Source of the DNA: an uncultured Tenacibaculum sp.
GTDB lineage: Bacteria > Bacteroidota > Bacteroidia > Flavobacteriales > Flavobacteriaceae
Direction of reading: 5' to 3'
Assembly (NCBI RefSeq): GCF_947499065.1
Contig: NZ_CANMMT010000002.1
Span: forward strand, 495,313 to 559,312
DNA: 64,000 bases
In this document: positions 7,266 through 42,250 of the stretch, in pieces
How the letters are laid out: each line of letters starts with the position of its first letter
How positions within the stretch are numbered: position 1 is the first letter of the stretch
Position numbers and translations under genes: made by a program
Notes under the pieces: generated by a model
The model's input: the letters and a program-made list of their open reading frames with translations, nothing else
The model's database searches: none
Told to the model about the DNA's origin: nothing

Positions 7266-8354
7266 ATGAACAAAGTTGATTTTTTAAATGGATTAAGGAT
7301 TCTATTTGTAATTGTTTTAGTTTTTACTTCTTGTAGTAAGAGCAATACTATAAATCCTGAGAATGAAAATGATGTACAAGAGTTTATCTCTGCAGTAGAC
7401 ATTTCTAGGTTTCCTGAAATATCAAGTTCAAATACAAAATTTTATGACTCAAACGGAAATTCGAGTGATTTTTTAGATATCCTGAAACAAAATGGTATTA
7501 ATACTATTCGGTTACGACTATGGGTAAATCCTTCGAATGTACATTCGGGTTTTGATGAAGTTCAAAAGTTTTCTAAAGAGTTAAAAACTAAAGGTTTTAA
7601 AATATGGTTAACACTTCATTATTCAGATACTTGGGCAGACCCTAGCCAGCAAAAAATACCAGCGGATTGGATTGGACTCAATTTTTCTGAAATGAAAGAC
7701 AAAGTTTATGATTATACTAAACAAATAGTAGAAAATTTACAGTCAGAATACATTCAAATTGGTAATGAAATTAATACTGGATTTTTGCATCCAATGGGAC
7801 ATATAACTGATAATTATAATCAGTTTAATGCACTAATGAGTTCAGGGATTAAAGCTGTTAGAGACCACTCTAAGAGCACTAAAATTATAATACATTTTGC
7901 AGGTATAGAAAATGCTGTATGGTTTTATAATCAAGTAAAAACACTTGATTATGATATAATTGGGCTTTCGTACTACCCTATTTGGCATGGGAAATCTTTG
8001 GATAAGTTGGCATCAACAATGAATCAGTTAACTAATGAGCATGATAAAAAAATACTCATAGCTGAAACAGCGTATCCTTTTACACTAGGTTGGAATGATT
8101 GGACCAATAATATTGTAGGTTTAGATAACCACTTGATTTTACCTGATTATCCTGCATCACCAGAGGGACAACAGTTATTTATACGAAAAGTTAAAAAACT
8201 TACGAATGAAGTTAAAAATGGAATAGGTTTTTGTTATTGGGGAGCTGAATTAATTGCCTGGAAAGGAACTCAAGCTACTGAAGCATCTACATGGGAGAAT
8301 CAAGCTTTATTTGACTTTAGTAACAAAGCTTTGCCTGTTTTAGAAGAGTTTTAA
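7266..8354 (+). CDS. GH53 endo-beta-1,4-galactanase lipoprotein
   Basis: Glycoside hydrolase family 53 enzyme that cuts beta-1,4-galactan side chains of pectin. A lipoprotein signal ends at Cys23 (LVFTSCSK), so it is membrane-anchored, probably outward. The (beta/alpha)8 barrel shows IRLRLWVNP (81-89), WLTLHYSDTWADP (114-126), acid/base Glu168 in IQIGNEIN and nucleophile Glu267 in ILIAETAYP, then GFCYWGAELIAWKG near the end. Length is normal. There is no SusC/D pair beside it, so it is not in a recognisable polysaccharide locus here. Confidence 0.93.
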   Translation: MNKVDFLNGLRILFVIVLVFTSCSKSNTINPENENDVQEFISAVDISRFPEISSSNTKFYDSNGNSSDFLDILKQNGINTIRLRLWVNPSNVHSGFDEVQKFSKELKTKGFKIWLTLHYSDTWADPSQQKIPADWIGLNFSEMKDKVYDYTKQIVENLQSEYIQIGNEINTGFLHPMGHITDNYNQFNALMSSGIKAVRDHSKSTKIIIHFAGIENAVWFYNQVKTLDYDIIGLSYYPIWHGKSLDKLASTMNQLTNEHDKKILIAETAYPFTLGWNDWTNNIVGLDNHLILPDYPASPEGQQLFIRKVKKLTNEVKNGIGFCYWGAELIAWKGTQATEASTWENQALFDFSNKALPVLEEF

Positions 8355-8404: not shown

Positions 8405-8491
8405 CAATAAAAAAGCACCCAAGTAGGGTGCTTTTAACCATAAAACTATCTATTAATTTAGCTGTTCCCATCAGCTAAATACTCAACAGCG
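8405..8491 (-). ncRNA. Candidate small RNA (about 85 nt)
   Basis: On the minus strand a TATATTTG element (8495-8502) is followed by a perfect 9-bp hairpin (arms 8456-8464 and 8472-8480) and then by a perfect 10-bp terminator stem (8411-8420 with 8426-8435) with a U-rich tail. No reading frame of note lies between. Promoter, structure and terminator in 85 bases make a small RNA gene plausible; the terminator also serves the converging GH53 gene. The ACTTCCCTCCT motif (8510-8520) sits 20-30 bases upstream of the predicted start. Confidence 0.45.
8411..8435. terminator. Bidirectional terminator
   Basis: Perfect stem AAAAGCACCC / GGGTGCTTTT with loop AAGTA. It follows the GH53 stop by about 55 bases. 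The U-tract is longer on the minus strand, suggesting it also ends a minus-strand transcript. Confidence 0.85.
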
Positions 8492-8684
8492 AAACAAATA
8501 TAAATACAGACTTCCCTCCTTTTCTTATTTGTAGAACTACAAAACCACTACAAGGCACACTACATATTTACTACATCATACAAAGCTTTTTTCTTAAAAA
8601 CTTTAAGATCAGTAAGCTGTATTTTTTCTGTTCGTTTTGAATTAAACTGATATTAAAAAAAGAATCATCATCATTTTACTTTTT

Positions 8685-9162: not shown

Positions 9163-10332
9163 TTATTGAATAAATGCAGGTATAACGATTTCAGAAATTG
9201 GAGTCATTATTTTATCATCTCTATCATGTCCAGTAATAACAATAACTAAATCAAGTTTTTCTACTACAATAATACGTTGTCCACCGCCTCCCCAGGCAAA
9301 AGAAGCATTATAACTTTTGTTACCGACTACAATAGGTGTTTGATACCAGAAATACCCATAACGATAAGTTTTTGGCATCCAATCTTCAGTAGGCTTTACT
9401 ATTCCACTGGTAGCTTTTTTAAGATATGCTACAGGGATAAGTTGTTCTCCATTCCATTTTCCTTTATCAAGTACTAATTTTCCTAACTTAAGCATATCAC
9501 GAGAGGTTATTTTTACCTTCCATCCAGATTCTGGTAAACCGCTAACTTCGTTTTTCCAATTATAATTAGTAATTCCCAATTTATCTAGAAGTTCTCTTTT
9601 GATGAAATCTTGTGCTGTACCAGGTACCACAGCATCAATAACCTGCATAACTAATCTAGGATTAAAATTACCATATAAATAGGTTTGAGTAGCTTTTGTA
9701 ATTGGTTTGCTATGCTTAAGAAGTGTTTGAACTAAACCTTGACCTTTTAATAATGCAGTATCTTTTTCAATTTCTTTCCACTTATCACGATCAATTGTAA
9801 GTCCACCATGCATAGTTAAAGCTTTATGAAGAGTAATTTTTTCTGCTCCTTTCACAAATTTTGTTGGGTCTAAATCCTTTAAAAAATGTACAAGAGGTTT
9901 ATTTAAATCATTCATAGATAAATACCCCATTTGTATTGCGCGCCCTAATATTAAACTTGTATGCCCCTTAGTTGCAGAAGCTTGACCATGTGCAAGATTA
10001 ATACGTCCCTTTTTGTAATAAGATTCAAAAACCAATTTATTTTTATGAGATATGAGTAAGCCATCATATTTACCGTGTTTTCCTTTTGCAATATCTTTTG
10101 CTAATTTAACAATTTTGTCTTCTCCATTCTTATTTGTCAATTTACCAACCAAAATGCCATCATCTCTTTTATCAGGAGAAGTATCGATAAAAGCTTTTTT
10201 AATGTCTGGAATATCCCAAAATGTAAGTTTTTTTTCAGTTTCTGTTGCTTCGGCTGCCGAACTATGTATTTGTTGAGAAAAGCCGCTATGTGTTAGTATA
10301 AAACATAGTAAAATTAGTAGGTTGTTTTTCAT
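9163..10332 (-). CDS. Exported serine hydrolase, beta-lactamase class C family
   Basis: 389 residues with a signal peptide (MKNNLLILLCFILTHSGFSQ). The beta-lactamase/transpeptidase fold shows the S-x-x-K nucleophile motif S119-A-T-K122 and the Y-x-N motif Y220-G-N222; the third motif near the C-terminus is probably in FAWGGGGQRIIVV. Family members are esterases, D-aminopeptidases or beta-lactamases acting in the periplasm. The PD40 lipoprotein gene 33 bases upstream on the same strand may be co-transcribed with it. Confidence 0.87.
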   Translation of the reverse strand: MKNNLLILLCFILTHSGFSQQIHSSAAEATETEKKLTFWDIPDIKKAFIDTSPDKRDDGILVGKLTNKNGEDKIVKLAKDIAKGKHGKYDGLLISHKNKLVFESYYKKGRINLAHGQASATKGHTSLILGRAIQMGYLSMNDLNKPLVHFLKDLDPTKFVKGAEKITLHKALTMHGGLTIDRDKWKEIEKDTALLKGQGLVQTLLKHSKPITKATQTYLYGNFNPRLVMQVIDAVVPGTAQDFIKRELLDKLGITNYNWKNEVSGLPESGWKVKITSRDMLKLGKLVLDKGKWNGEQLIPVAYLKKATSGIVKPTEDWMPKTYRYGYFWYQTPIVVGNKSYNASFAWGGGGQRIIVVEKLDLVIVITGHDRDDKIMTPISEIVIPAFIQ

Positions 10333-32807: not shown

Positions 32808-33581
32808 TTATTTTTCTAATTGTGCTAACGATTTTAATTCTACACCTAATTGCGTAAGCATCGTAGCGATACTGCTTATTTTTAAATCTCTTTCGTCGTA
32901 TTCTTGAGTATTGATACTACAAGTAAACTCCCATAGTTCTACAACTTCAGAAATTGGGACATTGTAGCTTTGATAATTTCTATTGTCTGGAACTAACAAT
33001 AATGTTTTATTCTCCTCAATTTTATCATACACTCTTTTATAGGTAATTCCGTCGTTTTTAGTAACAATTATGTAGGAAACACCATCTTTAACTTCGTTTA
33101 TATTTTCAATAAATCGAGCTACAACAAAAGATCCGTCTTTCATAGGATGCATAGAGTCTCCCTTAATTGGAAAAGCTCTATGCTTACCAACCGGTAAAAA
33201 AGGTAGTTTTATTCTTTGCAATTGTTCAATATATTCAGGATCATCATAACCTAATAAATAACCAGCAGATGCTTCTGTAGGTATAATTTCTATTAAGTTA
33301 TCATCTTCACTATCTACCATTATTGGGAAAAGCACTCTTTGACTCCCAATTTCTATGAATGATGATTCTTTTGAAAACGTTAAATCGTTTTTCACTAAAA
33401 CATCAATAGGTAACTTAAAATAATCTGATATAGTGATTAAAAACTCAATAGAAGGCTCTGATCTTCCTTCTTCATATGAAGAAACCCTAGACCTTGTTAT
33501 GTCTAGTTTTTCTGCAAATTGTTCTTGAGTTAATCCTCTTAATTTTCTTAAATGGCGTATATTTGTTGATATTTTTCTCAT
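32808..33581 (-). CDS. XRE-family repressor with S24 (LexA-like) peptidase domain
   Basis: 257 residues: HTH (about 3-60, LRGLTQEQFAEKLDITRSRVSSYEEGRSEPS), linker with the self-cleavage-type Ala-Gly (EASAGYLLGY), then S24 peptidase domain with nucleophile Ser in IKGDSMHP and base Lys in GITYKRV. Such repressors cleave themselves when stimulated by RecA or another signal and so act as damage switches. Its own promoter carries operator-like repeats. It borders the RNA-repair island on the left and may report damage to it; that link is inference. Confidence 0.92.
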   Translation of the reverse strand: MRKISTNIRHLRKLRGLTQEQFAEKLDITRSRVSSYEEGRSEPSIEFLITISDYFKLPIDVLVKNDLTFSKESSFIEIGSQRVLFPIMVDSEDDNLIEIIPTEASAGYLLGYDDPEYIEQLQRIKLPFLPVGKHRAFPIKGDSMHPMKDGSFVVARFIENINEVKDGVSYIIVTKNDGITYKRVYDKIEENKTLLLVPDNRNYQSYNVPISEVVELWEFTCSINTQEYDERDLKISSIATMLTQLGVELKSLAQLEK

Positions 33582-34160: not shown

Positions 34161-35261
34161 TTAATTATTAACCGTAAAAATTTCTTTTAACTGCTTTACA
34201 ACATTGCCATTACCTGAAACTGTAATCTCACCAATTTTATCGGCAATTTTTTCTACATATTCCATTTCTTTTAATTTGAACAACATTTCATTGTCTTCCA
34301 TTAATTTGGCTGTGTTTAATAAACTTCTGGTGGAAGCAGTTTCCTCTCTCCTAGTTATAATATTAGCTTGTGCTCTTTTTTGTGCTATTAAAACCTGATT
34401 CATGATGTCTTTCATATCACCAGTTAAAATAACATCTCTAATTCCGCAATTCACTATTTTTACACCTAATTGATTAGTGTTTTTAGAAACATCTTCAAAT
34501 ACTGCATTAGCAATGTTTTCTTTTTTCTCTAACAATTCATCTAAGGTATAACCTCCAACATAAGTTCTTAAAGCCAATTGCATTAAAATGTACAATTGCT
34601 TTTCATACTCTTTATTATCTAACAAAGCTTTCTCAATATCAACTACTTTATACTGCGTATAAAAGTTAATTCTTACATTGGCTTTGTCTTTTGTTAACAA
34701 TTCTTGTCCAGCTATTTCTAATTGCAATTGTCTCATATCTGCTTTGGCAATTTTAATAGATGTATCATTTCTCCAAAATCGATAAGTTCCTCCTGTTAAT
34801 GTTTTTGTATATACATCATTTACTAACAATAAGGCTTTTTCATAGGCTGCTACTTCAAAAGCTCTAATATGTTTATTTAATTGATAATTACTAAACAATG
34901 CTTTATCTATATTTTCTGTAATATAAATTTTGCTTTTATCTATTTTTTGAAAAGTTCTATTAATTAAACCTTTCCAATAAAAATACCTACCGGCTTCTAA
35001 TACTCTTTTAAAATTATGGTTTTCATAAACTAATACGAATTCATTATCCTTTACTTCTACAATATCTAACATGTCTGCTAAAACTGTATCTTTTAATAAG
35101 ATTTCTATAGCAATAGTTCCGATAAACTCACTTGTTAAATCATAAATAATGACGTTTTGATTTAAATACAACCAATGTGTACCTTCAGTAATTACTTTTT
35201 GATATTCTCCTTTTTTAAATACCAATCCTACTTTTCCTGTGTTAATTTTTATTCTTTTCAT
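34161..35261 (-). CDS. Slipin / SPFH (band 7) family protein of the RNA-repair island
   Basis: 366 residues. The SPFH domain is about 135-310 (IRAFEVAAYEKALLLVNDVYTKTLTGGTYRFW to the NQLGVKIVNCGIRDVILTGDMKDIMNQVLIAQKRAQA motif), followed by a helical tail (ANIITRREETASTRSLLNTAKLMEDNEMLFKLKEMEYVEKIADKIGEI). The N-terminus lacks the usual membrane anchor; instead there is a beta-rich leader, so it may be soluble. Slipins scaffold protein assemblies and, as I recall, recur with RtcB and tRNA-like RNA genes in bacterial RNA-repair operons. It lies directly downstream of the tRNA-like RNA, with no terminator between. Confidence 0.9.
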   Translation of the reverse strand: MKRIKINTGKVGLVFKKGEYQKVITEGTHWLYLNQNVIIYDLTSEFIGTIAIEILLKDTVLADMLDIVEVKDNEFVLVYENHNFKRVLEAGRYFYWKGLINRTFQKIDKSKIYITENIDKALFSNYQLNKHIRAFEVAAYEKALLLVNDVYTKTLTGGTYRFWRNDTSIKIAKADMRQLQLEIAGQELLTKDKANVRINFYTQYKVVDIEKALLDNKEYEKQLYILMQLALRTYVGGYTLDELLEKKENIANAVFEDVSKNTNQLGVKIVNCGIRDVILTGDMKDIMNQVLIAQKRAQANIITRREETASTRSLLNTAKLMEDNEMLFKLKEMEYVEKIADKIGEITVSGNGNVVKQLKEIFTVNN

Positions 35262-35561
35262 TCTTCTATTTTTTTTTATGATTTTATAAAAACGATATAT
35301 TTTAAATGCTTAAGAAAGCACGGAAATTGATCTTTTTAAAAAGGCTATAATTCGTTTTTTAAAATGGATTGAAATCATATATGAAATCAACTGATTTATA
35401 AAAAGGAACTACTTTCTTATTTAAAAAATTAAAAATTTCAAAGTTCTTTTTTAAGTGTTCTCGAAAGAACTCATAAAAAACATATCGTTTTTGTTAATGG
35501 TCATCAGTTTTACAAGTTGATGAGCTTCCTTAAATAATAGGCACTTTACTGCCCGAATTCT
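35262..35561 (-). other. Untranslated spacer between the tRNA-like RNA and slipin
   Basis: About 300 A/T-rich bases with no terminator. Two small hairpins are visible on the minus strand: TCATCA/TGATGA (35501-35523) and GTTCT-TTCG-AGAAC (near 35455-35470, perfect 5-bp stem with TTCG loop). Probably the slipin mRNA leader or a processing region. Confidence 0.5.
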
Positions 35562-35702
35562 CTAGAACCGAAATCTAGTGTCCTACCAATTAGACGATAT
35601 CCTAACGGATAGTGGGACTCGAACCCACACGGAATTCTCTATTGCATAACCGCTTTGCTACATAACTTTCGTTATGGAAGGATTCGAACCTCCGTACATA
35701 GA
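35562..35702 (-). ncRNA. Tandem circularly permuted tRNA-like modules (Y-RNA-like)
   Basis: Module 1, read on the minus strand: anticodon-stem strand TCTAT (35702-35698), variable GTAC, T-arm GGAGG-TTCGAAT-CCTTC (35693-35677), acceptor stem CATAAC/GTTATG closed by GAAA (35661-35676), T8-A9, D-arm GCA...TGC with GG in the loop (35644-35658), A26, and ATAGA (35642-35638) pairing perfectly with TCTAT. Module 2: T-arm GTGGG-TTCGAGT-CCCAC (35612-35628), acceptor TATCC/GGATA closed by GTTA (35598-35611), D-arm (35580-35595), anticodon arm CTAGA-TTTCGGT-TCTAG (35562-35578). There are no free acceptor ends or CCA, so it cannot be charged. The layout matches the tRNA-like modules described for bacterial Y RNAs. 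It sits between the rtcB2-prfH-TPR genes and slipin, behind its own promoter. Confidence 0.85.
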
Positions 35703-35706
35703 ATGC

Positions 35707-35930
35707 TGATTATTTTTTGGTAAATAATCAAAACCTTCAAGGCTAGTTGCATATAATAACCGAATACAAATATTGTACGGAATTATACAATGGTGCTATA
35801 CTGAAACACTCAACAAGACTTGCTTGATATTTTTAAAATCTTATTTCTAAATCTAACCTCACTTCAGTCTCTTATAAAGTGAGGTGTTTTGCAATTTTCC
35901 CACTTAGGCGCGATCTTTTTCATAATTACA
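35707..35930 (-). other. Structured 5' part of the tRNA-like transcript
   Basis: From the predicted start near 35928 to the first module there are three hairpins on the minus strand: ACCTCACTT/AAGTGAGGT (35856-35864 with 35877-35885), ATTGTA/TACAAT (near 35770-35790) and TGATTATTT/AAATAATCA (35707-35715 with 35722-35730). There is no reading frame. It may be the protein-binding part of the RNA. Confidence 0.5.
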
Positions 35931-35933
35931 CTG

Positions 35934-35971
35934 CAAATATTATATGTTATTGCGCAACCTTTTTGCGTAGT
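35934..35971 (-). promoter_or_regulatory. Promoter of the tRNA-like RNA with shared 21-bp box (copy 1)
   Basis: The box at 35951-35971 (TGCGCAACCTTTTTGCGTAG plus T) differs from the one at 42230-42250 by one base. In both cases exactly 10 bp separate it from CAAATAT (minus strand ATATTTG), the -7 element. The box contains TTGCGCAA, a palindrome. Probably the operator of an island-specific regulator. Confidence 0.8.
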
Positions 35972-35981
35972 GAAAAATATT

Positions 35982-36512
35982 TTACTTTTTCTTCTTCTTT
36001 TTATTACTTTTAGTTGCTTTTTTCTTCTTTGAATTTGGCATTTTTTCTTTTATACGATCTTTAGTGGTATCAATAGTATACATGAAATCAGAATTATAGC
36101 TATGCTCTTTTGCTAACTTGATAAACTTTAAAGCTGATTTATATTTTTTCTGATGTTCTTTTACAACAGCTTTCTTTAAATACAACATTGCTTTGTCTGA
36201 TCCTTTTACTGTTAATGCAAAGTCAATAAAATCTTCAGCCTCTTTTAAATCTTCATTCCATAGCAACACATTGATATAAGGTGAGTACACTTCAAAAGCA
36301 TTGATATTGATAGCTAAAACTTCTTTATAATATTCAATGGCTTCTGAATATTTATATAACTTTTCAGCATATACTCTACCCATTAATGTTAATGCCATTG
36401 TATTTTTATCGTCATAAGACAAAGCATAATTCAAAGACTCCATTGTTTCCTCTAAATCGTAATAAAATGCGTCTAATGCTTTAAAAACATAGTTGTTTAT
36501 ATAGTTTTCCAT
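35982..36512 (-). CDS. TPR protein with lysine-rich tail
   Basis: 176 residues. Three to four TPR-like helical pairs (ESLNYALSYDDKNTMALTLMGRVYAEK, YSEAIEYYKEVLAININAFEVYSPYINVL, EAEDFIDFALTVKGSDKAMLYLKKA, YKSALKFIKLAKEHSYNSDFM), then a tail of KKKKATKSNKKKKKK that would bind RNA. It starts 4 bases after prfH and is the third gene of the rtcB2 operon. A role in bringing PrfH/RtcB2 to RNA or ribosomes is inference. Confidence 0.85.
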   Translation of the reverse strand: MENYINNYVFKALDAFYYDLEETMESLNYALSYDDKNTMALTLMGRVYAEKLYKYSEAIEYYKEVLAININAFEVYSPYINVLLWNEDLKEAEDFIDFALTVKGSDKAMLYLKKAVVKEHQKKYKSALKFIKLAKEHSYNSDFMYTIDTTKDRIKEKMPNSKKKKATKSNKKKKKK

Positions 36513-36516
36513 GATT

Positions 36517-37209
36517 TTATTCTAATTGTTTACGCAAATCTGTTTTCAACTGATTACGTGTTGTTTTAAAAGATTTCTCTTTCTTTTTTTGTTTAAAATC
36601 GGAACCTGTAAATATTTTAATGGGGTTCCCTCTTTCTAAATTCAAATGGTTTTCCCATTCTTGTTTTACAGCTTCTTTTAATTGAGTTGTATTATGTTCC
36701 GAAACTTTTTCTTTTAATCGTTCTACTGCTATTTTTTTGTTTTGATGTTGTGATCGGCTATCCATAACTAAAACCTGAATTCCAGTAGGTAAATGTTTTG
36801 CTCTTATTGCTGAGCTTACCTTATTTACATGCTGCCCTCCTGCCCCAGAACTTCTAATAGCTTGAAATTGAATTTCTTTTTCATGAATTGTATTTTGCTG
36901 AACCTGATTCAATTCATAACATCCTATATACCAATTTTTACGTTTATGGTATTTTCTGAATGTAGATACTCCTATCCACTGAATTGTCCCTATCCAATTC
37001 TTTAAGAAATTCGAAATCTCTTTACCATTTAATTTTATACTTACCGATTGTATCGTGCCATTTTCTATTCCGTTTTCTTTATGAAGTATTTGATATTCAA
37101 TCTTATTAATTATCAATTCTTTTAAGAATATTTTTAGCACTTTGGCTACAACCCATGCACATTCTGCAGGTCCTTTTGCAGCTGTTAATTGTATTATTTT
37201 TGTTTCCAT
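36517..37209 (-). CDS. prfH: PrfH, release-factor-like ribosome rescue protein
   Basis: 230 residues. The catalytic GGQ is at 124-126 (RSSGAGGQHVNKVSSAIRAKHLPTGIQV), with the SRSQHQNK element after it, as in class-I release factors. It is much shorter than RF1/RF2 (about 360), lacking the N-terminal domain, as in the PrfH family. Published work on PrfH-RtcB pairs, as I recall it, has PrfH hydrolysing peptidyl-tRNA on ribosomes cut in the decoding centre so that RtcB2 can reseal the 16S rRNA. It begins one base after the rtcB2 stop, so the two are translationally coupled. Confidence 0.93.
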   Translation of the reverse strand: METKIIQLTAAKGPAECAWVVAKVLKIFLKELIINKIEYQILHKENGIENGTIQSVSIKLNGKEISNFLKNWIGTIQWIGVSTFRKYHKRKNWYIGCYELNQVQQNTIHEKEIQFQAIRSSGAGGQHVNKVSSAIRAKHLPTGIQVLVMDSRSQHQNKKIAVERLKEKVSEHNTTQLKEAVKQEWENHLNLERGNPIKIFTGSDFKQKKKEKSFKTTRNQLKTDLRKQLE

Positions 37210-37210
37210 T

Positions 37211-38602
37211 TTATGTATCCATTCTTACAATTTTTGGGGTAAATGTTCCTATTACTTCCACCAATTCTTGTTGATTCGCCATTACCTTTTTAATATTTTT
37301 ATAGGCCATTGGAGCTTCATCAATTCCTCCTCCTATAAGAGTTACATCGTTCATTTTTAACTGATGTTTGATATCACTTTTAGTAAACTTTTCTTTACAT
37401 TTTCTACGTGAATACAAACGACCAGCTCCATGTGAAGCCGAATTAAGACTCTCTACTTTACCTAAACCACGTACAATAAAACCTGGCGCTGTCATAGAAC
37501 CTGGAATAATACCTAATTGCCCTTTATTAGCTGGTGTAGCTCCTTTTCTATGCACAATTAATTCTTGATTATTTACTTGTTCTTTCCAAGCGAAATTGTG
37601 ATGATTTTCAATTTTAGCAATAGCTTTAGCTCCTAACAATTTTCCTATTCGTTTATGAATATTATCATGACACGCCTTAGCATAATCTCCAGCTAAATTC
37701 ATTGCTAACCAATATTCTTGTCCGTCATGTGTATTCAAATCTAACCATGCTAAATGTTGAACATTTTTGGGTAAAGGACATTGTTTTGCTGCCAAATAGG
37801 TATAGTGCTTTGCTATATTTGCTCCTAAACCTCGACTTCCACTATGCGTTAATAAGCCAATATATTCGCCAATTGGTAATTGAAATTCATTGTTCTCATC
37901 TGTAATATTTACAATTCCAAATTCAACAAAATGATTTCCACTTCCAGAGGTTCCTAATTGTTGATATGCCTTTGTTTTTAACCGCTTAACTAAAGGAATG
38001 TCCTTAAATTCTGAACGCTCAAATATTTCATGATCATGTTTTACCTTGTGTGTTTCTCGCATACCGAACTTTGTGTGTTCTGAAAGGATGCTTTCTAATT
38101 GATGTCTTTTTCCTTTTAAATAAGATGCTTTTATCGGATAGACAGTTAAACACATTCTACAACCAATATCTACTCCTACTCCATAGGGGATTACAGTGTT
38201 TTCAGTAGCTAGTACACCTCCAATTGGTAAACCATAACCTGAGTGTGCATCGGGCATTAAAGCGCCTTGTACAGCAATTGGTAATTTTAAAGCGTTATAT
38301 AATTGATATTTTGCTTGATCATCTATTTCATTTTCTCCGTAAATTGTAAAAGGAGCTCTTGTATTTTTTAATTCGTGAAAACGAACTTCTACAGGCTTTA
38401 GTAATCCTTCTACTACTTTACCCCAAATAGCATTTCCTTGAAATCTATCAGGCTCAAGTAATACTTCTTTAGCCTCCTCTAAAATACGTTCCTTCTTTTC
38501 TCTTTTCCGGTATCTGTTAATTTGCCCTAAAGCAATATTGATACTATTATTTTTTGGAAACCCTAATTTTATTAGGTCTTTTCCTTTTAATTTATTTCCC
38601 AT
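37211..38602 (-). CDS. rtcB2: RtcB-family 3'-phosphate RNA ligase, PrfH-linked type
   Basis: 463 residues, RtcB fold. It joins 2',3'-cyclic phosphate or 3'-phosphate ends to 5'-OH ends using GTP and Mn2+. Metal and active-site residues are all present: D145 and C148 (GVDIGC), H224 (GSGNHFVE), H253 (THSGSRGLG), H334/H335 (ENHHNFA) and the guanylylated H391 (SASHGAGR). DAHSGYG and HRKGATPANKG are also kept. First gene of the operon rtcB2-prfH-TPR. Its leader has two hairpins (38631-38652, 38661-38676) and an upstream RNA gene. Confidence 0.95.
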   Translation of the reverse strand: MGNKLKGKDLIKLGFPKNNSINIALGQINRYRKREKKERILEEAKEVLLEPDRFQGNAIWGKVVEGLLKPVEVRFHELKNTRAPFTIYGENEIDDQAKYQLYNALKLPIAVQGALMPDAHSGYGLPIGGVLATENTVIPYGVGVDIGCRMCLTVYPIKASYLKGKRHQLESILSEHTKFGMRETHKVKHDHEIFERSEFKDIPLVKRLKTKAYQQLGTSGSGNHFVEFGIVNITDENNEFQLPIGEYIGLLTHSGSRGLGANIAKHYTYLAAKQCPLPKNVQHLAWLDLNTHDGQEYWLAMNLAGDYAKACHDNIHKRIGKLLGAKAIAKIENHHNFAWKEQVNNQELIVHRKGATPANKGQLGIIPGSMTAPGFIVRGLGKVESLNSASHGAGRLYSRRKCKEKFTKSDIKHQLKMNDVTLIGGGIDEAPMAYKNIKKVMANQQELVEVIGTFTPKIVRMDT

Positions 38603-39277: not shown

Positions 39278-39574
39278 CTATGGCATTGGAAGTATTTCTA
39301 CTACTTTTCCATAAACATTTTTTGTCCATCCGTTAATTCTACCATGATTGTTACCAATCAATAATCCTCTTTTATCATTTTTACCTTTTACAAGATGTGT
39401 AAAACAATTTCCACGAACCTTGCAATAAACAATATCTCCAGCTTTACAATCTTTCCAATTAATAGGAGCTAATTTTACTGGTTGTTTAGATTTTAAAAGG
39501 GGTAACATAGAATTACCTGGTTCTTTTGATATAATGGTTTCTCCATTAGTCAATTTTTGAATTTTCCAATTCAT
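39278..39574 (-). CDS. S24/signal-peptidase-like domain protein without HTH
   Basis: 98 residues. EPGNSMLPLLKSKQPVKLAP holds the G-x-S-M-x-P nucleophile serine of S24/S26 peptidases; the base Lys would be in FTHLVKGKND, and GNNHGRINGWTKNVYGKVVEI is the usual end. There is no DNA-binding domain. It follows the second rtcB operon at 134 bases. Could be a protease acting on a regulator or a dead fold; unknown. Confidence 0.75.
   Translation of the reverse strand: MNWKIQKLTNGETIISKEPGNSMLPLLKSKQPVKLAPINWKDCKAGDIVYCKVRGNCFTHLVKGKNDKRGLLIGNNHGRINGWTKNVYGKVVEILPMP

Positions 39575-40729: not shown

Positions 40730-42250
<1,521 letters not shown>

Follow-up and report, generated by a model that had tools for sequence, protein, structure and literature searches.

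The window analysed here is a stretch of 64,000 nucleotides (nt) from an uncultured Tenacibaculum sp. (contig NZ_CANMMT010000002.1), and all positions given below are window positions unless another locus is named; the RNA with its modules, the operators and the slipin, TPR-like, prfH and rtcB genes lie on the minus strand. It carries a conserved RNA, which begins with a 5' domain at about 35833, extends to the start of a slipin gene at 35261 and encloses two tandem tRNA-like modules (35562-35702). The slipin gene (34161-35261) encodes a membrane-scaffold protein of the SPFH type and matches Band_7 with 105.8 bits. Upstream of the RNA lie a gene for a TPR-like protein (35982-36512; Pfam TPR matches, one of them above the cut-off), prfH for peptide chain release factor H (36517-37209; TIGR03072, 226.9 bits, cut-off 166.65) and, adjoining prfH, rtcB (37211-38602; PF01139, 285.2 bits). 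A first-pass annotation made from the sequence alone had described the module pair as circularly permuted tRNA mimics. To this description we add that the modules belong to a longer feature and that modules 1 and 2 differ in their permutation point. The RNA occurs in relatives of Polaribacter and Tenacibaculum immediately 5' of the slipin gene, and from its 5' domain to the slipin start it spans 572-937 nt.

All elements of the two modules were found at the positions given in the first-pass annotation. Module 1 (35638-35702) is, judged from its predicted pairing, a tRNA mimic with its permutation point in the anticodon loop, which is the layout of YrlA. Its outer strands TCTAT (35698-35702) and ATAGA (35638-35642) form the stem that corresponds to its anticodon stem, and between them follow a T-arm with the loop TTCGAAT (35677-35693), an acceptor hairpin closed by GAAA (35661-35676) and a D-arm region with the conserved GG (35644-35660). 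Module 2 (35562-35628) reads as a complete tRNA whose permutation point lies in the variable region. It consists of a T-arm with TTCGAGT (35612-35628), an acceptor hairpin of 5 base pairs (bp) capped by the tetraloop GTTA (35598-35611), a D-arm which also keeps GG (35580-35595) and its own anticodon arm (35562-35578), in which TCG occupies the anticodon position (35569-35571) of the loop TTTCGGT. A covariance model of the modules (R2) matched module 2 with 65.7 bits, a score that has to be read with the fact that this sequence belongs to R2's own alignment.

Outside the modules, the 5' domain (35715-35833) was matched by a second covariance model (R1), which was built from this domain only, at G000:C2:531027-531145 with 131.4 bits; here too, the window belongs to the model's own alignment. 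On the 3' side, a hairpin GGGCAGTAAAGTGCC at about 35540-35554 was predicted in the unconstrained fold of the window sequence. It is followed by a hairpin CATCA-ACTTGTAAAAC-TGATG (35502-35522), the stem of which changes in relatives to TATCA/TGATA, GATCA/TGATC, GACCA/TGGTC or AATCA/TGATT around a similar loop, so that pairing is kept; a strict pattern, which itself demands pairing, found this hairpin in 18 of 49 leaders. The adjoining region (35320-35444) carries the motifs ACTTTGAAAT (35435-35444) and TTTCCGT (35320-35326). In the leader scan, which begins 150 nt past the 5' domain, ACYTTGAAA was present in 22/49 and TTTCYGT in 25/49 leaders.

For the comparison with relatives, PrfH homologs were collected from named genomes (at least 80 loci), and 32 of the 397 genomes of the window's family contained one. 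In 11 of these 32 PrfH loci, the window included, the RNA lies downstream of prfH and the TPR gene and in front of slipin, and a twelfth locus (G036) retains the 5' part of the RNA only. These 12 PrfH-chosen genomes were the seeds of the 5'-domain alignment, in which 11 of the 30 predicted pairs of this domain (about 119 nt) changed on both sides. When Flavobacteriaceae genomes were searched with R1, as the first-pass annotation had proposed to do for the structure, the RNA was found in 41 of the 397 family genomes (37 of 237 genera). A draw from the phylum yielded 13 positives among 395 genomes, of which nine were new and two of these nine came from another family of the same order. The 41 family genomes and the nine further genomes make up the set of 50 RNA regions used below. 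Blast searches gave no match on plasmids and short matches in eight phage records, five of them over annotated tRNAs. Three viral contigs matched the 5'-domain pattern. In one of them (L227), the stretch contains no module and the R2 matches fall on ordinary tRNAs; in the two others (L226, L228), nothing matched R2 at E<=0.05. An R2 match in L072 overlaps a tRNA-Val. The RNA represents a further family, which Rfam release 15 matches only in its tRNA-like parts. Among the titles and abstracts searched we found no earlier description, and an earlier mention in Burroughs and Aravind 2016 or Chen et al. 2014 is possible.

The unconstrained fold of the window sequence yielded both modules with a z-score of -1.84, and 5 of 200 shuffled sequences folded equally well. 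The fold of a single sequence is therefore weak evidence, and the case depends on the comparison with relatives. Here, 96 modules were located through anchors in the T-arm and the D-arm, and the acceptor played no part in this selection. R2 was not used for counting because tandem ordinary tRNAs score with it as well (344 matches from 69 sources). According to the anchors, 39 of the 50 regions contain two modules, six contain one and four contain three; none was found in G036, of which only the 5' part is left. A flush 5-bp acceptor hairpin was present in 81 of the 96 modules, compared with a mean of 0.9 and a maximum of 4 in shuffled segments (500 rounds). In consecutive module pairs, the first module pairs within itself in 43/47 cases and the pairing expected for ordinary tRNAs was seen in 1/47, and the acceptor strands comprise 70 distinct sequence pairs. 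In relatives, the acceptor stems are 4-8 bp long (several 7 bp) and mostly carry short-loop caps; in the window 5 bp are closed by a 4-nt loop.

Alignments of the two module types point in the same direction. For module 1 (31 sequences), 97.3% of the cells were paired and 19 of 20 helix pairs changed on both sides, including all five pairs of the outer stem; for module 2 (24 sequences), the corresponding values were 97.1% and 18 of 20, and in both cases the percentages are biased upwards because the listed stretches (31 of 35 for module 1 and 24 of 27 for module 2, all from related sequences) had already been required to pair in their stems, a bias that affects the diversity of the pairs less. 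When the partners were slid by 1-3 columns, the share of paired cells dropped to 32-51%. The observed covariation scores were reached by none of 500 shuffles, except for one of the five module 2 measures (1/500). ARAGORN reported no tRNA and no transfer-messenger RNA in the window, and the sole trace of the latter was an 18-nt match (16.2 bits) in L116. Taken together, these data exclude two ordinary or decayed tRNAs as explanation, despite the matches of the Rfam tRNA model in relatives that are considered below. They bear out the claims of the first-pass annotation that two adjacent ordinary tRNAs do not account for the element and that the acceptor halves match only within a module, and the compensatory changes, the absence of which it had named as refuting, are present.

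Two kinds of module can be distinguished, since the outer stem goes with the first module and an own anticodon arm with later ones. A near-complete acceptor was present in 82 modules. In 38 of these, the anticodon-stem position held an outer stem only, and all 38 were the first module found. Another 29 had only an anticodon arm of their own, and 24 of them were the second or third module found; these numbers count modules found, so that a missed first module shifts the numbering. One module had both elements and 14 had neither under the strict criteria. When the 29 anticodon loops were tallied without criteria on the loop letters, U33 was present in 27, a purine at position 37 in all 29 and a pyrimidine at position 32 in 27. 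Ten different anticodons were counted in these loops (UUU 7, GUU 5, UAG 4, CAU 4, GAA 3, UCG 2 and four others once), so that the TCG of the window's own module 2 differs from the anticodons of many relatives.

The slipin gene is the constant neighbor of the RNA. In 49 of the 50 regions it starts 449-821 nt past the 5' domain and is read from the same strand, and this holds in 38/38 when the 12 seed genomes are left out. The exception is again G036, which retains the 5' domain and lacks both the modules and slipin. In the 397 family genomes, the RNA was found in 41 and slipin (counted at E<=1e-60 in the same genomes) in 42, and both occurred together in 40 (hypergeometric 2e-51). One of the two slipin genomes without the RNA carries a relative of 47% identity (G033), the other a fragment with an internal stop (G200). 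The constant partner of the RNA is slipin; it is not Ro60, RtcB or PrfH. Crude scans between the modules and slipin found a promoter-like TANNTTTG box in 2/49 and a terminator-like hairpin in 2/49 leaders, and because each of these elements is confined to just two leaders, the sequences suggest that the RNA and slipin are co-transcribed. The slipin of the window comprises 366 amino acids with the SPFH domain at about residues 170-340. Its structural models predict two additional beta repeats in front of this domain (predicted local distance difference test, pLDDT, 72.8 and 80.3), and in the whole model residues 299-366 have pLDDT values below 50. The whole model aligns to the major vault protein; since the N-terminal part, when compared on its own, favors domains of the SPFH type with low Z values, we do not claim a vault parallel. 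The precise functions of the slipin family are described as unclear (PMC2258279). Beyond slipin (32808-33581) we noted a gene for a regulator with helix-turn-helix and peptidase S24 domains.

An operator-like palindrome, CTACGCA-N7-TGCGCA, precedes the RNA (35951-35970, pattern match). On its 3' side lies a TAATATTTG box (35934-35942), which is promoter-like by comparison with promoters of Bacteroidota. The pattern TACGCA-N6-10-TGCG matches twice in the window, with 0.06 matches expected, and the two copies have the common form CTACGCA-N7-TGCG(T/C)A. The second copy (42230-42249) stands upstream of a second rtcB gene (40730-42223; PF01139, 125.3 bits), the open reading frame of which was called from the first TTG and probably starts further in. 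In the genome of the window, three sites match perfectly and a fourth has one mismatch, and the reversed pattern used as control gave none. In the 50 regions (581 kb, RNA strand only), we counted 42 sites compared with none for the reversed pattern. Twenty of the 42 (in 20 genomes) are found no more than 600 nt upstream of the RNA and eight no more than 120 nt from an rtcB start, and three of these eight fall slightly inside the extrapolated start, the query having been translated from the first TTG. One operator connects slipin, rtcB and, in two relatives, Ro60. The third perfect site of the genome (G000:C1:585430) is followed by a gene for a protein of 453 amino acids (L224, 5489-6850) without Pfam, NCBIfam or PADLOC match; about 1.1 kb downstream of that gene lies one for a protein with a cyclic-phosphate receiver domain (cREC_REC, PF20274), and PADLOC found nothing among the eight proteins submitted.

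The first-pass annotation had placed the modules in an RtcB/PrfH/slipin locus, and its link with RNA-repair genes stands, although RtcB and PrfH are not constant partners of the RNA. RtcB was found in 39 of the 50 RNA genomes, and in a draw of 149 genomes it was present in 12 of 15 with the RNA vs 23 of 134 without (Fisher 1.4e-6; three of the 15 RNA genomes were assigned by listing order). PrfH lies inside 12/50 RNA regions, all of them PrfH-chosen seeds, and a relative of the TPR-like gene inside 33/50. A gene for a 98-amino acid protein without family match lies upstream of rtcB in the window (39278-39574). The accessible part of a report on the RtcB2-PrfH operon of E. coli ATCC 25922 (PMC9223846) describes the same rtcB-prfH pair and mentions no RNA, and the RNA-slipin pair in turn mostly does without prfH. 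A parallel in gene content is found in Anabaena, where a single regulator of translation stress, TrcR, controls a tRNA operon induced by stress together with rtcB and a slipin gene (PMC10272220). There the genes are dispersed, and the accessible text mentions no tRNA-like leader RNA.

Genes for tRNAs precede the RNA on the same strand in 40/50 regions, with ten or more in 14, and many of the 30 regions without an operator close upstream of the RNA have tRNA genes in its place. Near rtcB-prfH loci of the family we observed arrays of 7-17 tRNAs reported by ARAGORN (L113, L115-L119, L121-L124, L130, L131), and some tRNAs of these arrays seem, by eye, to be interrupted by inserts around the anticodon (L116 near 8175-8320, L118 near 7890-8020). 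A second RNA of about 200 nt occurs in 8 of the 50 relatives (L116 about 9870-10075, L118 about 8478-8678, also G148, G320, G350, G097, G353 and G050). By eye it has a tRNA frame with acceptor, D-arm and T-arm around a core GGAGTGATTGGA...GCTAATGAATAGAATTTGCAGAAGCACCGAAA...AGTAGGGAAGCGCATTTATAGCC; in L116, Rfam gave no match specific to it at E<=3, and the core pattern is absent from the window's region.

As the best explanation, with a rough probability of 0.4, we propose that the RNA is a tRNA-mimicking leader of the slipin message, which would bait or sense enzymes acting on tRNAs by cleavage or binding. According to this leader reading, the RNA with its permuted mimics would be transcribed as leader of the slipin message, the modules would bait or sense such enzymes, and slipin would be made when tRNAs come under attack. 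The sequences show the permuted fold with its compensatory changes, the nearly invariant slipin neighbor, the true anticodon loops of later modules, the acceptors with their mostly short caps and the operator common with rtcB; that tRNA-handling enzymes engage the modules, and in which direction slipin responds, we infer. A capped acceptor end of freely varying sequence makes charging unlikely as role. Because the elbow (T-loop and GG of the D-loop) and the rules of the anticodon loop are kept, the likely clients are enzymes recognizing the shape of tRNAs or their anticodon loops. The steady slipin link and the operator common with rtcB suggest a role in the response to RNA damage. A precedent for a tRNA-mimicking mRNA leader is the operator of E. 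coli thrS. There as here, a tRNA-like structure stands before an open reading frame; unlike thrS, the present leader usually has two permuted modules with a variable anticodon, and the downstream gene does not encode a synthetase.

A number of observations weigh against the leader reading. Adjacency to slipin fits a complex of slipin and RNA equally well as a leader acting in cis. The scans for promoters and terminators were crude, and a separate scan lists a weak terminator-like hairpin in the window at about 35539-35554 (5 pairs, one of two sites). Just 20/50 regions have the operator in the 600 nt ahead of the RNA. In 11/50 genomes no RtcB is seen at E<=1e-20, which means that RtcB-mediated repair cannot be a required step. 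Arrays of tRNA genes also occur at PrfH loci without the RNA (L117, L119, L123, L124, L130, L131), a rule tying the module anticodon to the array tRNAs was not seen by eye, and no anticodon nuclease was found linked to the locus. The single-sequence fold is unexceptional. Finally, the Rfam tRNA model reached its cut-off inside the RNA in 6 of the 10 relatives' loci searched (eight plus-strand stretches), on the RNA strand in L111, L115, L116, L118 and L135 and on the other strand in L114, where ARAGORN also reported a minus-strand tRNA-His inside the RNA.

The strongest competitor is a trans-acting ribonucleoprotein, to which we assign a serious though minor chance. Here the RNA would be released and would join a slipin ring that replaces Ro60, and the modules would provide the docking site for a client enzyme, a role that has been suggested for YrlA with its nuclease. 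The near-obligate pairing with slipin, the resemblance of the modules to YrlA and the structured 5' and 3' parts outside the modules are all in keeping with such a particle, and SPFH proteins are reported to assemble into rings (PMC12624060).

An RNA switch with a permuted tRNA sensor appears doubtful. Anticodon nucleases would cleave the anticodon loop of module 2, and owing to the permuted layout this cut would detach the structured leader from the slipin message, leaving ends that RtcB could reseal. The output of slipin would then report the attack on tRNAs, and species might exchange the anticodon to track the prevailing nuclease.

Still less likely is a decoy acting in trans, with slipin being merely co-expressed. 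Anticodon nucleases would cut module 2 and thereby spare the tRNAs, and the product would be cleared by RtcB or by turnover. The true anticodon loops with their changing anticodon, the enrichment of RtcB in RNA genomes and the same operator before rtcB would suit a decoy, and the idea of a competitive inhibitor has been raised for YrlA (PMC7790460). However, a decoy leaves the slipin neighbor and the anticodon-less first module unexplained, a co-linear leader would be a costly decoy, and the 11 genomes without RtcB speak against it.

The first-pass annotation had read the element as a Y-RNA-like scaffold, decoy or sensor for the repair enzymes, without a visible Ro60. Its structural part holds, since both modules have the T-arm, acceptor hairpin and D-arm order of YrlA; its part on class membership does not, and a bacterial Y RNA working with Ro60 is very unlikely. 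Module 1 shares with YrlA (RF02553) the permuted order and the closing stem at the anticodon-stem position, and RNA-repair genes lie nearby in both systems. The Rfam YrlA model scored 24.1 bits in the window at a gathering cut-off of 69. On the tRNA-like part alone it gave 40.2 and 36.7 bits in L116, where the best match covers model positions 23-88 only, and in ten further loci no match reached the gathering score. Ro60 (TROVE) was absent from the window's own genome, where the first-pass annotation had suggested looking for it, from the first 60 family genomes searched and from 47 of the 50 RNA genomes. The three genomes with TROVE carry it just downstream of slipin (G353, G079) or about 32 kb off (G449), with a copy of the operator 5' of Ro60 in G353 and a variant, seen by eye, in G079.

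The RNAs behind TROVE carry a GTGTCGT...ACTT(CG) motif, with four copies in G353, one in G079 (at a contig end) and one in L007. The GTGTCGT...ACTTCG form may be the Ro60 contact. None of the 49 slipin leaders has this motif, which is why we regard the slipin RNA as distinct from the Ro60 RNAs; in G353 and G079, where Ro60 has separate RNAs of its own, both kinds of RNA are seen in one neighborhood. Thus, the YrlA score below cut-off, the absence of Ro60 from 47/50 genomes and the missing motif led us to reject membership among the Y RNAs. In addition, the slipin partner, the additional module(s) that have a full anticodon arm and the long 5' and 3' parts set the RNA apart from YrlA. The array behind Ro60 in G353 (L197, 9776-10600) comprises four RNAs with GTGTCGT...ACTTCG, one or two of which have tRNA-like parts by eye. 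A point in favor of Y-RNA membership, next to the arm order and the sub-threshold YrlA matches, is a single locus of Fulvivirga sediminis (L007, 9477-11700), in which at least two YrlA-like modules come after rtcB, prfH, an open reading frame and Ro60.

Permuted tRNA genes of certain algae and archaea give rise to transcripts that are circularized and then opened to working tRNAs. A similar origin of working tRNAs, with RtcB as circularizing enzyme, is highly improbable for the present RNA, and a precursor role is disfavored. Module 2 is indeed a complete tRNA with its 3' half ahead of the 5' half, several relatives have 7-bp acceptors, and RtcB, a ligase of the tRNA-splicing type, is encoded in the same neighborhood. 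On the other hand, the acceptors vary between 4 and 8 bp and their mostly short caps leave little room for maturation of the ends, of which there is no sign; the modules are tandem with a fixed place before slipin, module 1 has no anticodon loop, and the genomes without RtcB again do not fit. The idea that ordinary tRNA genes have decayed where a tRNA array ends has a negligible chance and is refuted by the pairing test, the 70 distinct acceptor pairs and the compensatory changes, even though arrays lie just upstream in many relatives and tandem tRNAs give the same linear arm order and score with R2; an origin of the RNA from the junctions of tRNA arrays is possible.

The RNA presents complete permuted tRNAs with species-variable anticodons in a nearly one-to-one relation with slipin, and tRNA mimics of the YrlA type are apparently not limited to Ro60 systems. 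If the switch described above proved true, it would represent a new class of RNA that senses attack on tRNAs. For the biology of these bacteria, the RNA makes two questions testable, namely the role of bacterial slipins and the purpose of the tRNA-like modules of Y-type RNAs.
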